From contig NZ_WOSV01000001.1 in NCBI RefSeq assembly GCF_011516655.1, positions 248,001-312,000 on the forward strand: DNA of 64,000 bases, written 5' to 3'. The stretch's first letter is position 1; each line of letters starts with the position of its first letter. The notes beneath the pieces were generated by a model, which worked only from the letters and a program-made list of their open reading frames with translations, made no database searches and was not told where the DNA came from. Below are positions 16,090 to 22,816 of the stretch, piece by piece. The DNA is from Acetobacter thailandicus. GTDB lineage: Bacteria; Pseudomonadota; Alphaproteobacteria; Acetobacterales; Acetobacteraceae. Made by a program: the position numbers and the translations under genes.

Positions 16090-16253
16090 TTAACAATATG
16101 TTACACTTTACCTTACTGCACTTTAAAAACAAAAATAGTACTTGCATGTAACCAAAAAACTTAACAAAATAATAAAAGTCGATTTTTTATCGAAACATTA
16201 GCCCCTGGCAACAGTTTATGACAGCGCCTGCCTGGCCGTTAATTTTTAATTAT

Positions 16254-16280
16254 TTTATTTATTTATTTATTTATTTATTA
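16254..16280 (+). repeat. TTTA tetranucleotide repeat in the cydD leader
   Basis: Six tandem TTTA units (16254-16277) plus a partial unit lie 43 bases before the preferred cydD start. The frame is open from an ATG at 16218 through the tract into cydD, so a change in unit number would shift any translation beginning upstream. With the preferred start the tract is in the leader. Confidence 0.85.
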
Positions 16281-16322
16281 AATTATAATACCATTATGGT
16301 CTGTTTTACAGGATGGCTCTCC

Positions 16323-18014
16323 ATGCAAGCGACTCAGCAACAAACAGGATCATATCTCAAAGACCTGACACGCCGGGCCCGCACATGGCTGATGCTTTCT
16401 GCTGCAACCAGCAGCATTGCCTGTATACTCTTCATTTTACAGCTCTGCGCTCTTGCCGCTCTTGTCGATAATCTGACATTCAAAGGGCAGCCTCTCGACA
16501 CATCAGTTACAGACTGCATCATCATTCTTGCTCTCTCTGTCAGCAGTTTTATTTTTCAGTGGCTGGCAGATATGACCGGCAAAGAAGGAGGGCTGCACAT
16601 CAGCGCTTCCGTTCAGCGCGATGCCCTCATTCATCTGACCAAAGCCGGCCCTGCAGGGTGCGCCAAACAACCAGCCGGGCAGCTTATCACCACCATGACA
16701 GAAGCTGCCGAAGCGCTTGAGCCTTATTTTTCACAATATATTCCACGCGCGGTCATGATGGTCGTGCTCCCCATAGTGATTCTTGGCATTGTGTTTCACT
16801 TTGATATCTGGAGCTTTGTAATTCTGGCCTGCACCGGGCCTCTTATTCCTTTTTTTATGGTTCTGGTCGGCTACAGCGCACAAAGCATAATGGACCGCCA
16901 GTGGACACAGCTTGTGCTGATGGGGTCATCCTTCCTTGACTCTTTGCGGGGGCTCATGACCCTGCGCCTGAATGGACAGACAACGAACAGTATCACCCGT
17001 CTTGAACGTCAGACCGAAGCACACCGCCATGCAACATTTTCTGTCATGCGCGTCGCTTTTCTGACATCTGCAACTCTCGAATTTTTTGCCAGCCTTTCTG
17101 TCGCGATGGTTGCAGTTATCTTTGGCTCTCGCCTGCTGGCCGGCACTGCTGATTTTCGTTCAGCCTTTATTGTTCTGGTCCTGGCACCTGAATATTTCAT
17201 TCCTCTGCGCAATTTCTCATCCAGCTATCACGCCAGACAAAATGCTATGGCCGCAGCAAAACAACTCCAGACCCTTTTTACTCTGCCTGAATATGCGGTC
17301 GCGCGTCAAAGCGCCTCAGAACCTGTGTCATCAGCAGCACCTGTTACGATGCTAAAGCTTAATGATATTTCTGCATCTTATGAAAAAGCACTTATCCTGA
17401 AGCAGATCAGTGCAGAAATAAGAAAAGGACAGCTCACTGCAGTGAGTGGCGAAAGTGGCAGCGGTAAAACCACATTACTCTATACTTTAATGGGTTTTTT
17501 ACCTCTCCGTTCAGGTTCTGTTGCAGCATACGATGCTGGAGGGGCACAACACCCCCTGACAGAAGAAAACATAGCATGGGTTCCCCAGCGCCCGCTTATG
17601 GCCTTTGGCAGCATTGCTGACAACCTGCGCCTGGGCGCACCGGAAGCCACTGATGATGACCTGAAAAATGCCACGCGGCAGGCTGGGATTTTCGATTTCA
17701 TCATGACACTGCCAGAAGGCTTTAATACTCAGGCCGGTGAACGGGGCGCCCGTCTTTCCGGCGGGCAGATCAGACGCCTCAGCCTGGCCCGGGCCCTGTT
17801 GCGTAACCCCGATATACTCTGCCTGGATGAACCAACAGCGAACCTTGATCCCGATACTGCTGACACCATTATTGAGATGCTGAAAAGCTGTGCGAAAACG
17901 CGCATCGTTCTTGTCGCTACACATGATCAAAAACTCATTTCTGCAGCGCAACAGGTTTTACATATCAACGAAAATGGCAGTCTCTCCGCACTTACTGAGA
18001 AGGCAGTCGCATGA
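16323..18014 (+). CDS. cydD: Cysteine/glutathione exporter subunit CydD
   Basis: CydD forms a heterodimeric ABC exporter with CydC that moves glutathione and cysteine to the periplasm and is needed for assembly of cytochrome bd. About 563 residues: a six-helix membrane domain, then an ATPase with [24 protein letters not shown] and [16 protein letters not shown] at 16323 follows AGGA by 9 bases and gives a normal N-terminus; in-frame ATGs at 16296 and 16218 would add 9 or 35 residues partly encoded by the TTTA tract. Its stop overlaps the cydC start (ATGA). It heads the operon cydD-cydC-cydA-cydB plus two small genes. Confidence 0.92.
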
Positions 18015-19696
18015 TCCCCCTGCGTCGTCTGCCTTCACTCACAAAATCCGTCCGGCTTTACATGATATTTGGCATAGCGCTGGCGTGTCTTGCCGCACTG
18101 GCAAGCTTTGGGTTGCTCTTTTTATCAGGGTGGTTGCTGGCCGGAGCTGCTGTAGCAGGCATAAGCGGAGTTGCTGCACAACAGGCTTTTAATATTTTGC
18201 TACCCGCGACAGGTGTGCGCTTCTTTGCAATGCTGCGCATTCTCTCGCGCTATGGTGAGAAACTTATCACTCATGATGGTGCCTTGAGAGTTATGGGCCA
18301 GCTGCGTAGCTGGTGCTACCACTGCCTGGCACCACAGGCGCCTGCAGGGCTGCATAACCGCCGGGGAGGTGACCTGCTTTCACGCTTTGTAACTGACACC
18401 GACCTGATAGGGCAGCATTATACCAGCACTTTGTTGCCTTATATCAGAGCAGTCGTCTGCGGCAGCCTGTTCGTGCTCATAATGGCTATTTTTTCTCCAC
18501 AGGCAGCGTTGTGCCTTGCAACGGGACTACTCTTCAGTGGCCTGATCCTGCCTTATATTACCGGCCTGATTGCTGACCGGCTGGCAGTCACCCTGACTAC
18601 CCTCCACAGTCAGAACCGTACCGACCTGGCCGACCTGATTGCTGCAACAGGTGAATATCTGGCGCCTGCCGCCACCCGCCATCTGCACATACAGTTTACT
18701 GAAAAGCAGCTCAAACTTAATCGTTCACATCGCCTTATGGCCGCCACCGAAAGTGCCGCCCGCGGGTTAACGACACTATGCACCACGGTGACAAGCCTTG
18801 CTGTTCTTCTTGTCGCAACAAATTCTTTTCATAAAAACTACCTGTCATTACCAGAAGTGCCCATGCTGGTTCTGGGGTGTCTTACCGCATTTGACATCAT
18901 CACTCCTCTGCCTGCGGCCAGGCAACTGCTAAGCCGCACAAAGCTCGCAGCACAACGACTATATGATGCCTGTATGACCCCCCCTCTTGTGGCAGCTCCC
19001 ATTCACCCGGTTCATCCTGACAATGCCGATTTTCTGGAAATTTCTAATCTTTCATTCCGCTACCCCGGGTCAGAACAGTGGATCTTTCGGCATGCCAGCC
19101 TGAATATCCAAAAAGGAGAACGTGTTGCACTGATCGGCCCCTCTGGCACCGGGAAAAGTTCTCTCATTCAAATTCTTTTTCGCTTCTACCCTTTTGAAGC
19201 AGGCAGCTGTCATTTAGGTGAGCATGATATCTGCGATATGCAAAGCGAAACACTGGCTGAAAAAATCAGTGTTGCTCCACAGAATTTTCACCTTTTTAAT
19301 GGCACGGTTCGTGACAACATGCTTCTGGCAAGCCCACAGGCAACTGAAGCCGACATAATGCAGGCGCTGCAAACTGCAGGCCTGACAGACTGGCTTAACA
19401 ATACACCACATGGACTGGAAACTGCCGTTGGTAACGAAGGTTTTCAGATATCAGGAGGTCAGGCGAGAAGGCTCTGCCTCGCACAGATACTACTGCGCAA
19501 AACCCCATGGCTCATTCTCGATGAGCCTACAGAAGGGCTTGATGCAGAAACGGAAAAGACTGTTCTGACAAACCTCATACAGGCAAGGCCGGATATGACA
19601 CTGATCTGCATAACTCACAGACGATCAGTTCTGCCGTTTATGACCAGAGCGATTCAGATCAGAAACGGTCAGTTTCATCCGGCAGAGGAGATATAA
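18011..19696 (+). CDS. cydC: Cysteine/glutathione exporter subunit CydC
   Basis: This is the partner of CydD, 561 residues. The membrane domain occupies about residues 15-310 and the ATPase about 335-555. The ATPase shows IGPSGTGKSS, ISGGQARRLCLAQ and PWLILDEPTEGLD, and a switch His in LICITHRRSV. It starts inside the cydD stop codon, so the two are translationally coupled, as expected for an obligate heterodimer. The cydA gene starts 49 bases downstream after an A/T-rich spacer. Confidence 0.92.
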   Translation: MIPLRRLPSLTKSVRLYMIFGIALACLAALASFGLLFLSGWLLAGAAVAGISGVAAQQAFNILLPATGVRFFAMLRILSRYGEKLITHDGALRVMGQLRSWCYHCLAPQAPAGLHNRRGGDLLSRFVTDTDLIGQHYTSTLLPYIRAVVCGSLFVLIMAIFSPQAALCLATGLLFSGLILPYITGLIADRLAVTLTTLHSQNRTDLADLIAATGEYLAPAATRHLHIQFTEKQLKLNRSHRLMAATESAARGLTTLCTTVTSLAVLLVATNSFHKNYLSLPEVPMLVLGCLTAFDIITPLPAARQLLSRTKLAAQRLYDACMTPPLVAAPIHPVHPDNADFLEISNLSFRYPGSEQWIFRHASLNIQKGERVALIGPSGTGKSSLIQILFRFYPFEAGSCHLGEHDICDMQSETLAEKISVAPQNFHLFNGTVRDNMLLASPQATEADIMQALQTAGLTDWLNNTPHGLETAVGNEGFQISGGQARRLCLAQILLRKTPWLILDEPTEGLDAETEKTVLTNLIQARPDMTLICITHRRSVLPFMTRAIQIRNGQFHPAEEI

Positions 19697-19745: not shown

Positions 19746-21344
19746 ATGGATATGATCGACCCAACCGTTGTAGAGCTTTCACGGTTTCAGTTTGCACTTA
19801 CAGCTCTCTATCACTTTATGTTTGTTCCTCTGACACTGGGACTGACATTTATGCTTGCTGCCATGGAAACTGTTTATGTCGTAACCGGCCGCAAAATTTA
19901 CAAAGACATGGCAATGTTCTGGGGAAAGCTCTTTGGTATCAATTTCGCACTTGGCGTTGCTACCGGCATCACCATGGAGTTCGAATTCGGCACCAACTGG
20001 TCCATGTATTCACGATATTTTGGCGACATGTTTGGTACACCACTTGCCATTGAAGGTCTGATGGCCTTTTTTATGGAGTCTACCTTTGTCGGCATGATGT
20101 TTTTTGGATGGGACCGCCTGAGTAAACCAGCTCACCTTGCCATAACATATCTGGTTGCTTTGGGATCAAACCTCTCAGCTTTGTGGATTCTGATTGCCAA
20201 TGCGAGCATGAACGTCCCTGAAGGCACGCACTTTGATCCTGAAACAATGCGTTTGCAATTCGACAGTTTTGTAAAAGTTGTTTTCAACCCTGACGCGCAG
20301 GCTAAATTTGTTCATACGTCAGTTGCTGGTTACGTATGTGCCTCCTTATTCGTCATGGGTATCAGCTCTTTTTATCTTTTACGTAAACAACACAGACAAT
20401 TCGCTGCCCGGTCTTTTCGTATGGCTGCCTTGTTTGGCATTATTTCAACTGTAGCTGTAATCACTCTGGGTGATGTTCTTGGCCGCATGGATTACGAAAA
20501 ACAGCCGACAAAAATTGCCGCTATTGAAGGGTTGTGGGAAACCAGCCAGCCACCTTATGCCCCCTGGCTTCTTTTTGCTTTACCTGATAATGAAAAGCAG
20601 ACGAACTACCTTGAAATCGGTGTCCCCTACGTTCTGACACCACTGATTACACATGAGTTTGATAAGCCGATTACCGGCATGCATGAGCTACAAAATGAAG
20701 CCGAGCCTCATATTCGCTCTGGCATCGAAGCGCTCTCGGCTTTAAAACGCTATGGTCAGACACATGACCAGACTGATCTGGATGCTTTCCGTCAGCACAA
20801 AGAAGATCTTGGGTTTGGTTTCCTGGCCACACAATTTGCACCAGGTCAGGATGTCACCAACATCTCTCCGGATGAAGTAAATAAAGTCGTAGAAGCTACA
20901 AAACCTGCTATCCTGCCTAATGTTTTTGTTGTTTTCTGGTCTTTCAGACTTATGGTTTTTCTGGGGCTTTCCTTTTTTCTTTTGTTTGCTGTGTCTGCCT
21001 ATCTCAGCCTCAAAAAACAACTCGAACGCAACCGCTGGATTTTACACCTGTGCATGTGGTCTATCCCTCTGCCTGTTCTGGCTACCGAGTTTGGATGGAT
21101 TACGGCTGAAGCCGGCCGTCAGCCCTGGACAGTTTTTAACAGACTGCCAACCTTTCTGTCATCATCCACGCATAGCGTAACATATATGGCCATTTCACTG
21201 GCTGGCTTTGCCCTCCTTTACAGTATCTTCATCGCGGCTGAACTTTATCTGATGTTTAAATTTGCCCGCCTTGGACCAGATGAGCACGATACACACGGCA
21301 CATCTGCTCTGTCACATAACGCCGCCGCTCCCGCAGCACACTGA
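19746..21344 (+). CDS. cydA: Cytochrome bd ubiquinol oxidase subunit I
   Basis: CydA carries hemes b558, b595 and d and oxidises ubiquinol. The 532 residues follow the E. coli CydA pattern closely (HFMFVPLTLG with a heme His, KLFGINFALGVATGITMEF, GTNWSMYSRYFGDMFG, ALGSNLSALWI). After the quinol-site segment (KQPTKIAAIEGLWE) a long Q-loop of the bd-I type is present (about residues 250-390), with the conserved C-terminal half around KKQLERNRW. Acetic acid bacteria are better known for the short-loop cyanide-insensitive form, so this is a different oxidase. AAAGGA precedes ATG 19746; the ATG two codons later is an alternative. Confidence 0.95.
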   Translation: MDMIDPTVVELSRFQFALTALYHFMFVPLTLGLTFMLAAMETVYVVTGRKIYKDMAMFWGKLFGINFALGVATGITMEFEFGTNWSMYSRYFGDMFGTPLAIEGLMAFFMESTFVGMMFFGWDRLSKPAHLAITYLVALGSNLSALWILIANASMNVPEGTHFDPETMRLQFDSFVKVVFNPDAQAKFVHTSVAGYVCASLFVMGISSFYLLRKQHRQFAARSFRMAALFGIISTVAVITLGDVLGRMDYEKQPTKIAAIEGLWETSQPPYAPWLLFALPDNEKQTNYLEIGVPYVLTPLITHEFDKPITGMHELQNEAEPHIRSGIEALSALKRYGQTHDQTDLDAFRQHKEDLGFGFLATQFAPGQDVTNISPDEVNKVVEATKPAILPNVFVVFWSFRLMVFLGLSFFLLFAVSAYLSLKKQLERNRWILHLCMWSIPLPVLATEFGWITAEAGRQPWTVFNRLPTFLSSSTHSVTYMAISLAGFALLYSIFIAAELYLMFKFARLGPDEHDTHGTSALSHNAAAPAAH

Positions 21345-21372: not shown

Positions 21373-22512
21373 ATGGATATTTATACCATTCTCAAGCTGA
21401 TCTGGGGAGGCATTCTGTGCCTTCTCATGATTGGTCTCGCCCTTATGGTTGGGATGGATATGGGCGTTGGCACGCTTCTGCGCTTTGTGGGCAAAGATGA
21501 TGCTGAACGCCGCACGATGCTGAACATTATTGGCCCACACTGGGACGGTAATCAGGTCTGGTTTGTTTTAGGTGGCGGCGCAATTTTTGCGGCATTTCCC
21601 ACTCTTTACGCCACTTCTTTTTCAGTTTTTTATCTTGTTATGATTATGCTGTTATTCAGCATGATTCTTCGTCCTGTCGCATTTGAATATCGCTCAAAAG
21701 CAGATAGCACCCGCTGGCGGGCCAGCTGGGACTGGACCTTCCTGATCTCTGGTTTCTTACCAATGTTTATTTATGGTGCTGCCTTTGGCAACATCCTTAG
21801 TGGTGTTGGTTACCATTTCAGCTGGACAGGCCAATATTACCAGGACAGCTCTTTTATTTCTTATCTGCTCAACCCTTTTGTCATTCTGTGTGGTCTGCTC
21901 TCTGTTTCTCTGAGTGTTTACCAGGGTGGCGTTATGCTTATGCTGCGCAGTAACGACCCTATTTATAGCCGGGCCAGAAATTTCTCACGGATCGCAGGTG
22001 TACTGGCAGCATTTTTATTTGCCGCCGGTGGTGTATTTATCTGCTTTATGCAGGGTTTTATGCTTACAGAACCTGTGAATACCGCCATGCCTGCAAACCC
22101 GCTGCATGGACAGCATGTTGCAAGAGCAGCAGGAGCATGGCTGCTTAACTACTCAGCACACCCTGTCCTGTGGCTTCTGCCTGTTGCAGGGCTGGCCAGC
22201 ATGATATGCGGCTCGGCTTTGGTTACACTCAAAAAAACCGTTCTGGCATGGTGGTGCGGCATGAGTGCCTGGATTGGCGTTATCGGCACTGTGGCTGCGG
22301 CAATGTTTCCGTTCCTCATGCCTTCCACAACAAAGCCTGATCAGAGTCTGACATTATGGAACAGCACCGGCAGCCTTTACGGGCTTACATGCATGTTAAT
22401 TGTCAGCACCATTTTCATACCACTGATCATTACTTACACCTCATGGTGTTATTATGTCATGCGTGGCAAGGTCAGCACAGCTGAGATCGCCAACGATCCA
22501 CACAGCTATTGA
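21373..22512 (+). CDS. cydB: Cytochrome bd ubiquinol oxidase subunit II
   Basis: CydB pairs with CydA in the inner membrane and stabilises the oxidase. The 379 residues match the length of E. coli CydB; the N-terminus (MDIYTILKLIWGGILCLL) and the segment GPHWDGNQVWFVLGGGAIFAAFP are characteristic. The start at 21373 has GAAGGGAAAGGA just upstream; an in-frame upstream extension to 21262 would overlap cydA and is unlikely. The stop is followed after 11 bases by the small cydX-like gene. Confidence 0.95.
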   Translation: MDIYTILKLIWGGILCLLMIGLALMVGMDMGVGTLLRFVGKDDAERRTMLNIIGPHWDGNQVWFVLGGGAIFAAFPTLYATSFSVFYLVMIMLLFSMILRPVAFEYRSKADSTRWRASWDWTFLISGFLPMFIYGAAFGNILSGVGYHFSWTGQYYQDSSFISYLLNPFVILCGLLSVSLSVYQGGVMLMLRSNDPIYSRARNFSRIAGVLAAFLFAAGGVFICFMQGFMLTEPVNTAMPANPLHGQHVARAAGAWLLNYSAHPVLWLLPVAGLASMICGSALVTLKKTVLAWWCGMSAWIGVIGTVAAAMFPFLMPSTTKPDQSLTLWNSTGSLYGLTCMLIVSTIFIPLIITYTSWCYYVMRGKVSTAEIANDPHSY

Positions 22513-22523
22513 GGAGACATACT

Positions 22524-22715
22524 ATGCAATTTTTACGCCTGGCAGGTCTTGCAGCTGTTCTGGTTGTTGCTCTGCTTTTTGCTGTTTTTGTAGGTGATCA
22601 GGGCCCCTGGTATTTTGCCTGGGTCATTGGCACTGTAATGATTATTCTCATCTCTGGTGCCGGCGCTATCCTGTTCGATGCTCAGGAAACCGCCTCAGAT
22701 GATCAGGAGGTTTAG
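22524..22715 (+). CDS. cydX: CydX-like small subunit with an extra N-terminal membrane segment
   Basis: This 63-residue protein contains WYFAWVIGT at residues 29-37, the hallmark of the cytochrome bd accessory subunit CydX (E. coli CydX begins MWYFAWILGT). In E. coli the motif is at the N-terminus of a 37-residue, single-span protein. Here about 28 residues with a separate hydrophobic span (about 5-23) come first, so two spans are predicted, with an acidic tail (ETASDDQEV). GAGGAG 22511-22516 supports ATG 22524. It lies between cydB and another tiny gene; whether the first span contacts CydA is unknown. Confidence 0.8.
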   Translation: MQFLRLAGLAAVLVVALLFAVFVGDQGPWYFAWVIGTVMIILISGAGAILFDAQETASDDQEV

Positions 22716-22717
22716 TA

Positions 22718-22816
22718 ATGCTGACAGATCCTGAAAATGTTATTTTCTTTATTCCTTTTCTTTATCTTTCTTTTTACGGAATCGCCTATTTTATTATGCG
22801 ACGTTTTTTCCGTTAA
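22718..22816 (+). CDS. 32-residue single-span membrane protein at the end of the cyd operon
   Basis: A small gene not resembling any family I know. ATG at 22718 follows the cydX stop by two bases, with AGGAGG (22705-22710) seven bases upstream. The product begins MLTDPENV, then has one hydrophobic, aromatic-rich span (about residues 9-27) and ends in a basic tail (MRRFFR), predicting an N-out/C-in helix by the positive-inside rule. Position and size recall extra small subunits of bd oxidases such as CydH/CydY or CydS, but I see no sequence match. Stop TAA at 22814-22816; arsC follows after 61 bases. Confidence 0.65.
   Translation: MLTDPENVIFFIPFLYLSFYGIAYFIMRRFFR

Follow-up and report, generated by a model that had tools for sequence, protein, structure and literature searches.

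The cyd gene cluster and its last gene

The window, i.e. the whole 64,000-nucleotide stretch of Acetobacter thailandicus DNA that was analysed, contains a cytochrome bd gene cluster on the forward strand, in which two ABC-transporter-like frames are followed by cydA, cydB, a cydX-like gene and a 32-codon gene for a small membrane protein, here called S32. The two ABC-transporter-like frames overlap (16218..19696) and look CydDC-like from a reading of their translations. A tandem run of TTTA at approximately 16250-16285 lies at or just 5' of the start of the first of them. The cydA gene (19746..21344; PF01654, E 1.9e-161) codes for cytochrome bd subunit I of the Escherichia coli bd-I-like type, the best PDB match of its product being the E. 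coli bd-I CydA (6rko_A), and cydB (21376..22512; TIGR00203, E 2.2e-107; PF02322) codes for subunit II. The cydX-like gene (22524..22715) encodes a 63-aa protein with a WYFAW motif and, by reading, two hydrophobic stretches. Its match to TIGR02106 (E 0.0047) scores 17.2 bits against a CydX cut-off of 31.6 bits; the same model was matched at E ≤ 1 by 13 of 14 relatives of this protein. A cydX-like protein with two helices has been described previously from acetic acid bacteria (PMC5322542, cited, like the other papers below, from excerpts), and the excerpts mention no further ORF downstream of its gene.

The S32 gene (22718..22816), recognized by reading of the sequence, by profile matches and by the selection acting on it, starts with ATG at 22718 and ends with TAA at 22814-22816; its product is MLTDPENVIFFIPFLYLSFYGIAYFIMRRFFR, with a calculated mass of 4029 Da, to which formylation would add 28 Da. 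The start codon follows the TAG stop of the cydX-like gene after 2 bases, and the ribosome-binding site AGGAGG (22705..22710), located within the 3' end of the cydX-like gene, is separated from it by seven bases. These coordinates agree with the earlier note on this DNA, which had pointed to an ATG directly past the cydX-like stop, a well-spaced AGGAGG and a frame of 32 codons.

Distribution of S32 and its linkage to CydB

A search of 150 genomes of the family with the window S32 product (E ≤ 10) gave a match in 32 genomes. In 18 of the 29 loci fetched (the window's own excluded), the match was closely preceded by cydB and a cydX-like gene; the remaining matches were mostly stretches within long frames. 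A profile built from 17 S32 sequences and applied to 395 genomes of the order produced matches at E ≤ 1 in 128 of them, including 89 strong ones (E 1.1e-8 or better), all others having E values of 0.02 or worse. A search of the same 395 genomes with CydB gave a match in 339. In 87 of these, CydB is near full-length and of the close type, with at least 57% identity to that of the window (E 6.2e-146 or better); in another 43 the best match has an identity of 39-49%, 2 (G413 and G310) have close-type fragments only, and 207 have only remote matches (E 6.5e-37 or weaker).

S32 was present in all 87 genomes with near full-length close-type CydB, and the profile search detected it in none of the 43 genomes whose best CydB is 39-49% identical. 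In 86 of the 87 it lies on the contig and strand of cydB, 205-334 bases past it; in the 87th (G356), the contig with S32 starts inside cydB, so that the two are split by a contig end. Thus, 88 of the 89 strong matches are found at a close-type cydB: 86 on a single contig, one behind the cydB tail in G356 and one in G413, where cydB was matched only in three pieces and both cydX and S32 are intact. The last strong match is a degraded remnant, devoid of the conserved proline, in G259, a genome with only a remote CydB match. S32 is therefore a member of the cyd cluster that is conserved with it, with one exception, G310, in which a close-type cydB breaks off after approximately residue 136 near a contig end, cydA is present and the profile search found no S32 anywhere in the genome. 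G310 counts against a strict linkage of S32 to CydB, the remainder of its operon having been either lost or left unassembled; assembly errors are possible in both G413 and G310.

Analysis of 80 named-genome loci retrieved with CydB gave the same picture. S32 was recognized (49-69 bits) in 17 of them, which are exactly the 17 with a CydB at least 61% identical and include representatives of Acetobacter, Komagataeibacter, Acidomonas, Saccharibacter, Acidocella and Acidiphilium. The other 63 loci (CydB identity of 56% or less) gave at most 7.5 bits with the profile or nothing at E ≤ 10. A length of less than 6000 bases was found for 10 of these loci and for 1 of the 17, and the gene could lie beyond the contig in a few such cases. 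Among the 63, the loci least similar to the window (e.g. those of Brenneria and Pectobacterium) have a cydX for a single helix, in most cases with a YbgE-like frame behind it; those of Brucella, Frateuria, Thiomonas and Salinisphaera have a longer cydX and no S32. In two Thiomonas loci, cydB is followed by a tandem pair of CydX-like frames of this longer type (at +338 in L104 and at +301 in L110).

A class-wide search of 385 genomes revealed no convincing S32 member outside the Acetobacteraceae: the 13 out-of-family hits had E values from 7e-4 to 0.02 and aligned with the 32-position profile over 14 to 23 positions. A search of plasmid records for a copy of the operon returned 660 matches, all of them less than 60% identical.

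Reading frame, selection and the end of the operon

The copies of S32 that were compared come from 90 genomes, namely 88 of the 89 with strong matches (the G259 remnant was left out) and two from the first search (G093 and G094). Exactly 32 codons are found in 82 copies; two have 33 codons, two 38, two 29, one 47 and one 25. The start codon is ATG in 90 of 90 copies (with a script that favoured ATG if two starts were equally near), and 89 of the 90 are preceded by a motif resembling a Shine-Dalgarno ribosome site. The 82 copies of standard length represent 81 distinct 96-base sequences, including that of the window; stop codons occur in none of these in the S32 frame, in 67 in the +1 frame and in 53 in the +2 frame.

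For the selection test, we used 33 disjoint pairs of sequences differing at 3-30 bases. Substitutions were found mostly at third codon positions (126, 60 and 320 at positions 1, 2 and 3, respectively) and resulted in 145 residue differences, compared to a mean of 315 and a minimum of 288 in 2000 simulations that placed the same base changes randomly. In the 31 pairs for which dS could be computed, the ratio of summed dN to summed dS was 0.13. S32 is a genuine gene under purifying selection. The conservation with synonymous bias in Acetobacteraceae cyd loci that the earlier note had proposed as a check is thus borne out, by 87 of 87 close-type genomes and a dN/dS of approximately 0.13. As findings that would speak against the gene, the same note had named absence of the frame from related operons or its breakage by stops. 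The frame is present in all 87 close-type genomes; the contrary cases are G310 (see above) and G154, whose locus is close to that of Acetobacter pasteurianus and in which a stop codon cuts S32 to 25 codons, with loss of the basic tail. Three near relatives of G154 (G161, G219 and G314) have S32 at full length.

Terminator-like hairpins were found within 130 bases after S32 in 44 of the 90 loci and were not found there in the other 46; such hairpins occurred in only 1 of the 90 loci within the 230 mostly coding bases 5' of S32 and in 3 of 450 shuffled versions of the sequence downstream. No terminator-like site was found after S32 in the window, where an ArsC-like gene (TIGR00014, 22878-23240) begins 61 bases past it, so this gene might be co-transcribed with the cyd genes here.

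Sequence and predicted structure of the S32 protein

The description of S32 in the earlier note, a single aromatic-rich span with a basic tail, proved accurate. Among 69 distinct 32-residue sequences (weighted, effective number 39), Glu6 and Pro13 are invariant, Ile9, Tyr16, Leu17, Ala23 and Pro32 are conserved in more than 90%, and position 28 is occupied by Arg or Lys in 98%. Trp is absent from residues 1-14 in 67 of the 69. The window protein retains E6, I9, P13, Y16, L17, Y20, A23, Y24 and R28 and is divergent in having neither the GDLEG start nor the terminal proline. Conservation across residues 6-28 is periodic, its moment being highest at 100 degrees (p 0.007 for this angle), so that one face of a helix is constrained, as expected of a helix packing against a partner. 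With the mean number of Lys and Arg residues being 0.17 in positions 1-8 vs 2.5 in positions 25-32, the acidic N-terminus is predicted to be outside and the basic C-terminus inside. AlphaFold models S32 as one helix (residues 4-30, mean pLDDT 90.9, pTM 0.48), so the protein, with its hydrophobic core, is predicted to span the membrane once.

Neither the window protein nor 16 of its relatives had a significant match in Pfam or NCBIfam, in agreement with the earlier note, which had recognized no known sequence in S32; annotation based on those models would miss the gene. Weak matches of single members to PGF-CTERM (E 0.052), Defensin_big (E 0.26) and TIGR03061 (E 0.19) were dismissed as chance, as was the match of the S32 profile to a phosphatase (E 1.4) in a PDB search that returned no bd subunit chain at E ≤ 10.

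In an exploratory search for a contact site, we also compared the large subunits of genomes with and without S32. Seven of the 14 fixed changes that are specific to the S32 clade in CydB fall within residues 77-103 (Brenneria L138 numbering; p 0.0015); no such clustering was found in CydA. As these residues form a helix near the interface with CydA and the S32 genomes make up one clade, this clustering supports no conclusion about a contact site. In 18 CydA proteins of the S32 type, residue 243 is Arg and residue 233 is Ala; the respective E. coli residues, Tyr243 and Ser233, are reported quinone contacts (PMC13189123). The enzyme of acetic acid bacteria may have a quinol site that differs from that of E. 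coli.

Probable role of S32

These data are best explained if S32 is a translated single-pass membrane protein and an accessory subunit of the Acetobacteraceae CydAB-CydX bd-I oxidase, to which we assign a probability of roughly 0.75. On the features that can be tested in sequences, S32 fits the functional class of one-helix accessory subunits that are encoded in bd oxidase operons. The earlier note had favoured the same reading, and the conservation and selection described above support it; physical binding is still presumptive. Binding, and the site at which it would occur, are suggested by the operon position, the co-occurrence with CydB and the conserved helix face; the translation of S32, its topology and its effect on bd activity are likewise what we infer.

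According to the proposed mechanism, S32 would close the series of cyd genes in the bd-I operon of Acetobacteraceae and its product would be inserted, by the positive-inside rule, with the acidic N-terminus in the periplasm and the basic C-terminal tail in the cytoplasm. The face formed by E6, I9, P13, Y16, Y20 and Y24, with L17 and A23 beside it, would pack on a helix of CydA or CydB and might either stabilize the complex or close a lateral opening to the haem/quinol region, a job comparable to those of CydX and CydH in E. coli.

That S32 is a chance frame without a product can be put aside almost completely: it has only 32 codons and no annotation model, but purifying selection at the codon level, together with the exact length of 32 codons in 82 of 90 copies, refutes it. 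We find it very improbable that S32 is a regulatory or membrane-stress peptide merely riding on the shared transcript. Small hydrophobic peptides with such functions exist, and S32 is often the last gene before a terminator-like site, but its strong matches in the 395 genomes stay, apart from the one remnant, at a close-type cydB. Slightly less probable still is that S32 is a divergent homologue of CydH, CydX or YbgE. The E. coli CydH start, M-x-x-D-L-K (6rko_H), is superficially similar to the M-x-G-D-L-E of S32, but the likeness ends in opposite charges at residue 6, and hhalign comparisons of S32 with CydH, CydX-like proteins and YbgE gave probabilities of 0.23% or less, in a test of low power with profiles of approximately 30 residues and no positive control.

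The least improbable of the alternatives, albeit an unlikely one, is that S32 is an assembly or haem-insertion factor, which would act transiently and be absent from the mature oxidase. Linkage to the operon and selection are equally expected in this case, and ABC-transporter-like frames of the same orientation directly precede cydA. However, bd-associated proteins of similar size (CydX, CydH and CydS) are subunits visible in the structures (PMC8951039). The one-sided conserved helix with its invariant Glu and Pro is compatible with either role. In addition, the linkage of S32 to a single CydAB clade could result from common descent instead of physical contact.

If S32 is indeed a subunit, the Acetobacteraceae bd-I might be a four-subunit enzyme in which S32, having arisen independently of CydH, plugs or lines a lateral opening of CydA/CydB and sets the access of oxygen or quinol in organisms respiring in the presence of strong acetic acid or at low pH. 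We offer this more specific proposal only tentatively and consider it rather doubtful. In more general terms, an overlooked gene has been preserved together with cytochrome bd in acetic acid bacteria and their relatives and probably encodes an extra subunit, in which case bd enzymes that have been purified or modelled without S32 may be incomplete.

Comparison with known small bd proteins

In our searches of the open-licence literature we found no description of an S32-like gene. Allen et al. (2014; PMC4325964) mention, in the excerpts, unnamed other hydrophobic small proteins, and S32 may be among these. The CydY and CydZ (DUF2474) of that paper resemble S32 in being encoded by a short ORF after cydB with a ribosome site and in having one helix, but they come from operons without cydX and their helix begins with a Trp. 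S32 differs on both counts, adjoining a cydX-like gene in the loci that were read and lacking this Trp in 67 of 69 sequences. Their CydY, which belongs to a long-Q-loop operon and has an invariant helix-start Trp, is set apart from S32 by this description, and none of 17 S32 members matched DUF2474 (PF10617) at E ≤ 1.

CydS of Geobacillus is also a short single-helix bd subunit but takes the place of CydX (PMC8951039). YbgE, too, is a membrane protein whose ORF follows cydX in operons of the E. coli type; however, it has about 97 aa and another sequence, whereas S32 has 32 codons. CydX/AppX (TIGR02106, PF08173), which the oxidase needs for its assembly and activity, shares with S32 the small size, the membrane location, the position after cydB and the link to bd-I. 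S32, in contrast, adjoins a CydX-like gene, as seen in the 19 loci that were read and in the 17 named S32 loci (in one of these only in part), lacks the helix-start Trp and the WYFAW motif, and has the invariant Glu and Pro; 0 of 17 S32 members matched TIGR02106 or PF08173 at E ≤ 1.

A functional parallel would be the E. coli CydH/CydY (YnhF, NF033411), a bd partner of about 30 residues that is additional to CydX and blocks access to haem b595 (PMC6853902, PMC8951039). CydH occupies the cleft between TM1 and TM9 of CydA. It differs from S32 in being encoded outside the cyd operon (PMC6853902), whereas S32 is within the cyd cluster, and NF033411 had no match at E ≤ 1 among the 17 S32 members. 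Across the phylum, 21 of 398 genomes passed the CydH cut-off, as did the E. coli control; 0 of 41 S32 genomes passed it, with 12 weak matches (E 0.06-0.99) only. As these 41 genomes have no CydH above the cut-off, one could conjecture that S32 fills an analogous role. In E. coli, the small subunits are reported to serve in assembly and dimerization (CydX) and in oxygen access (CydH) (PMC8951039, PMC6853902, PMC13189123). The presence, across much of an industrially used family, of a second small protein that shows no detectable similarity to them and is encoded beside a CydX-like gene suggests that small subunits of bd oxidases evolve repeatedly.
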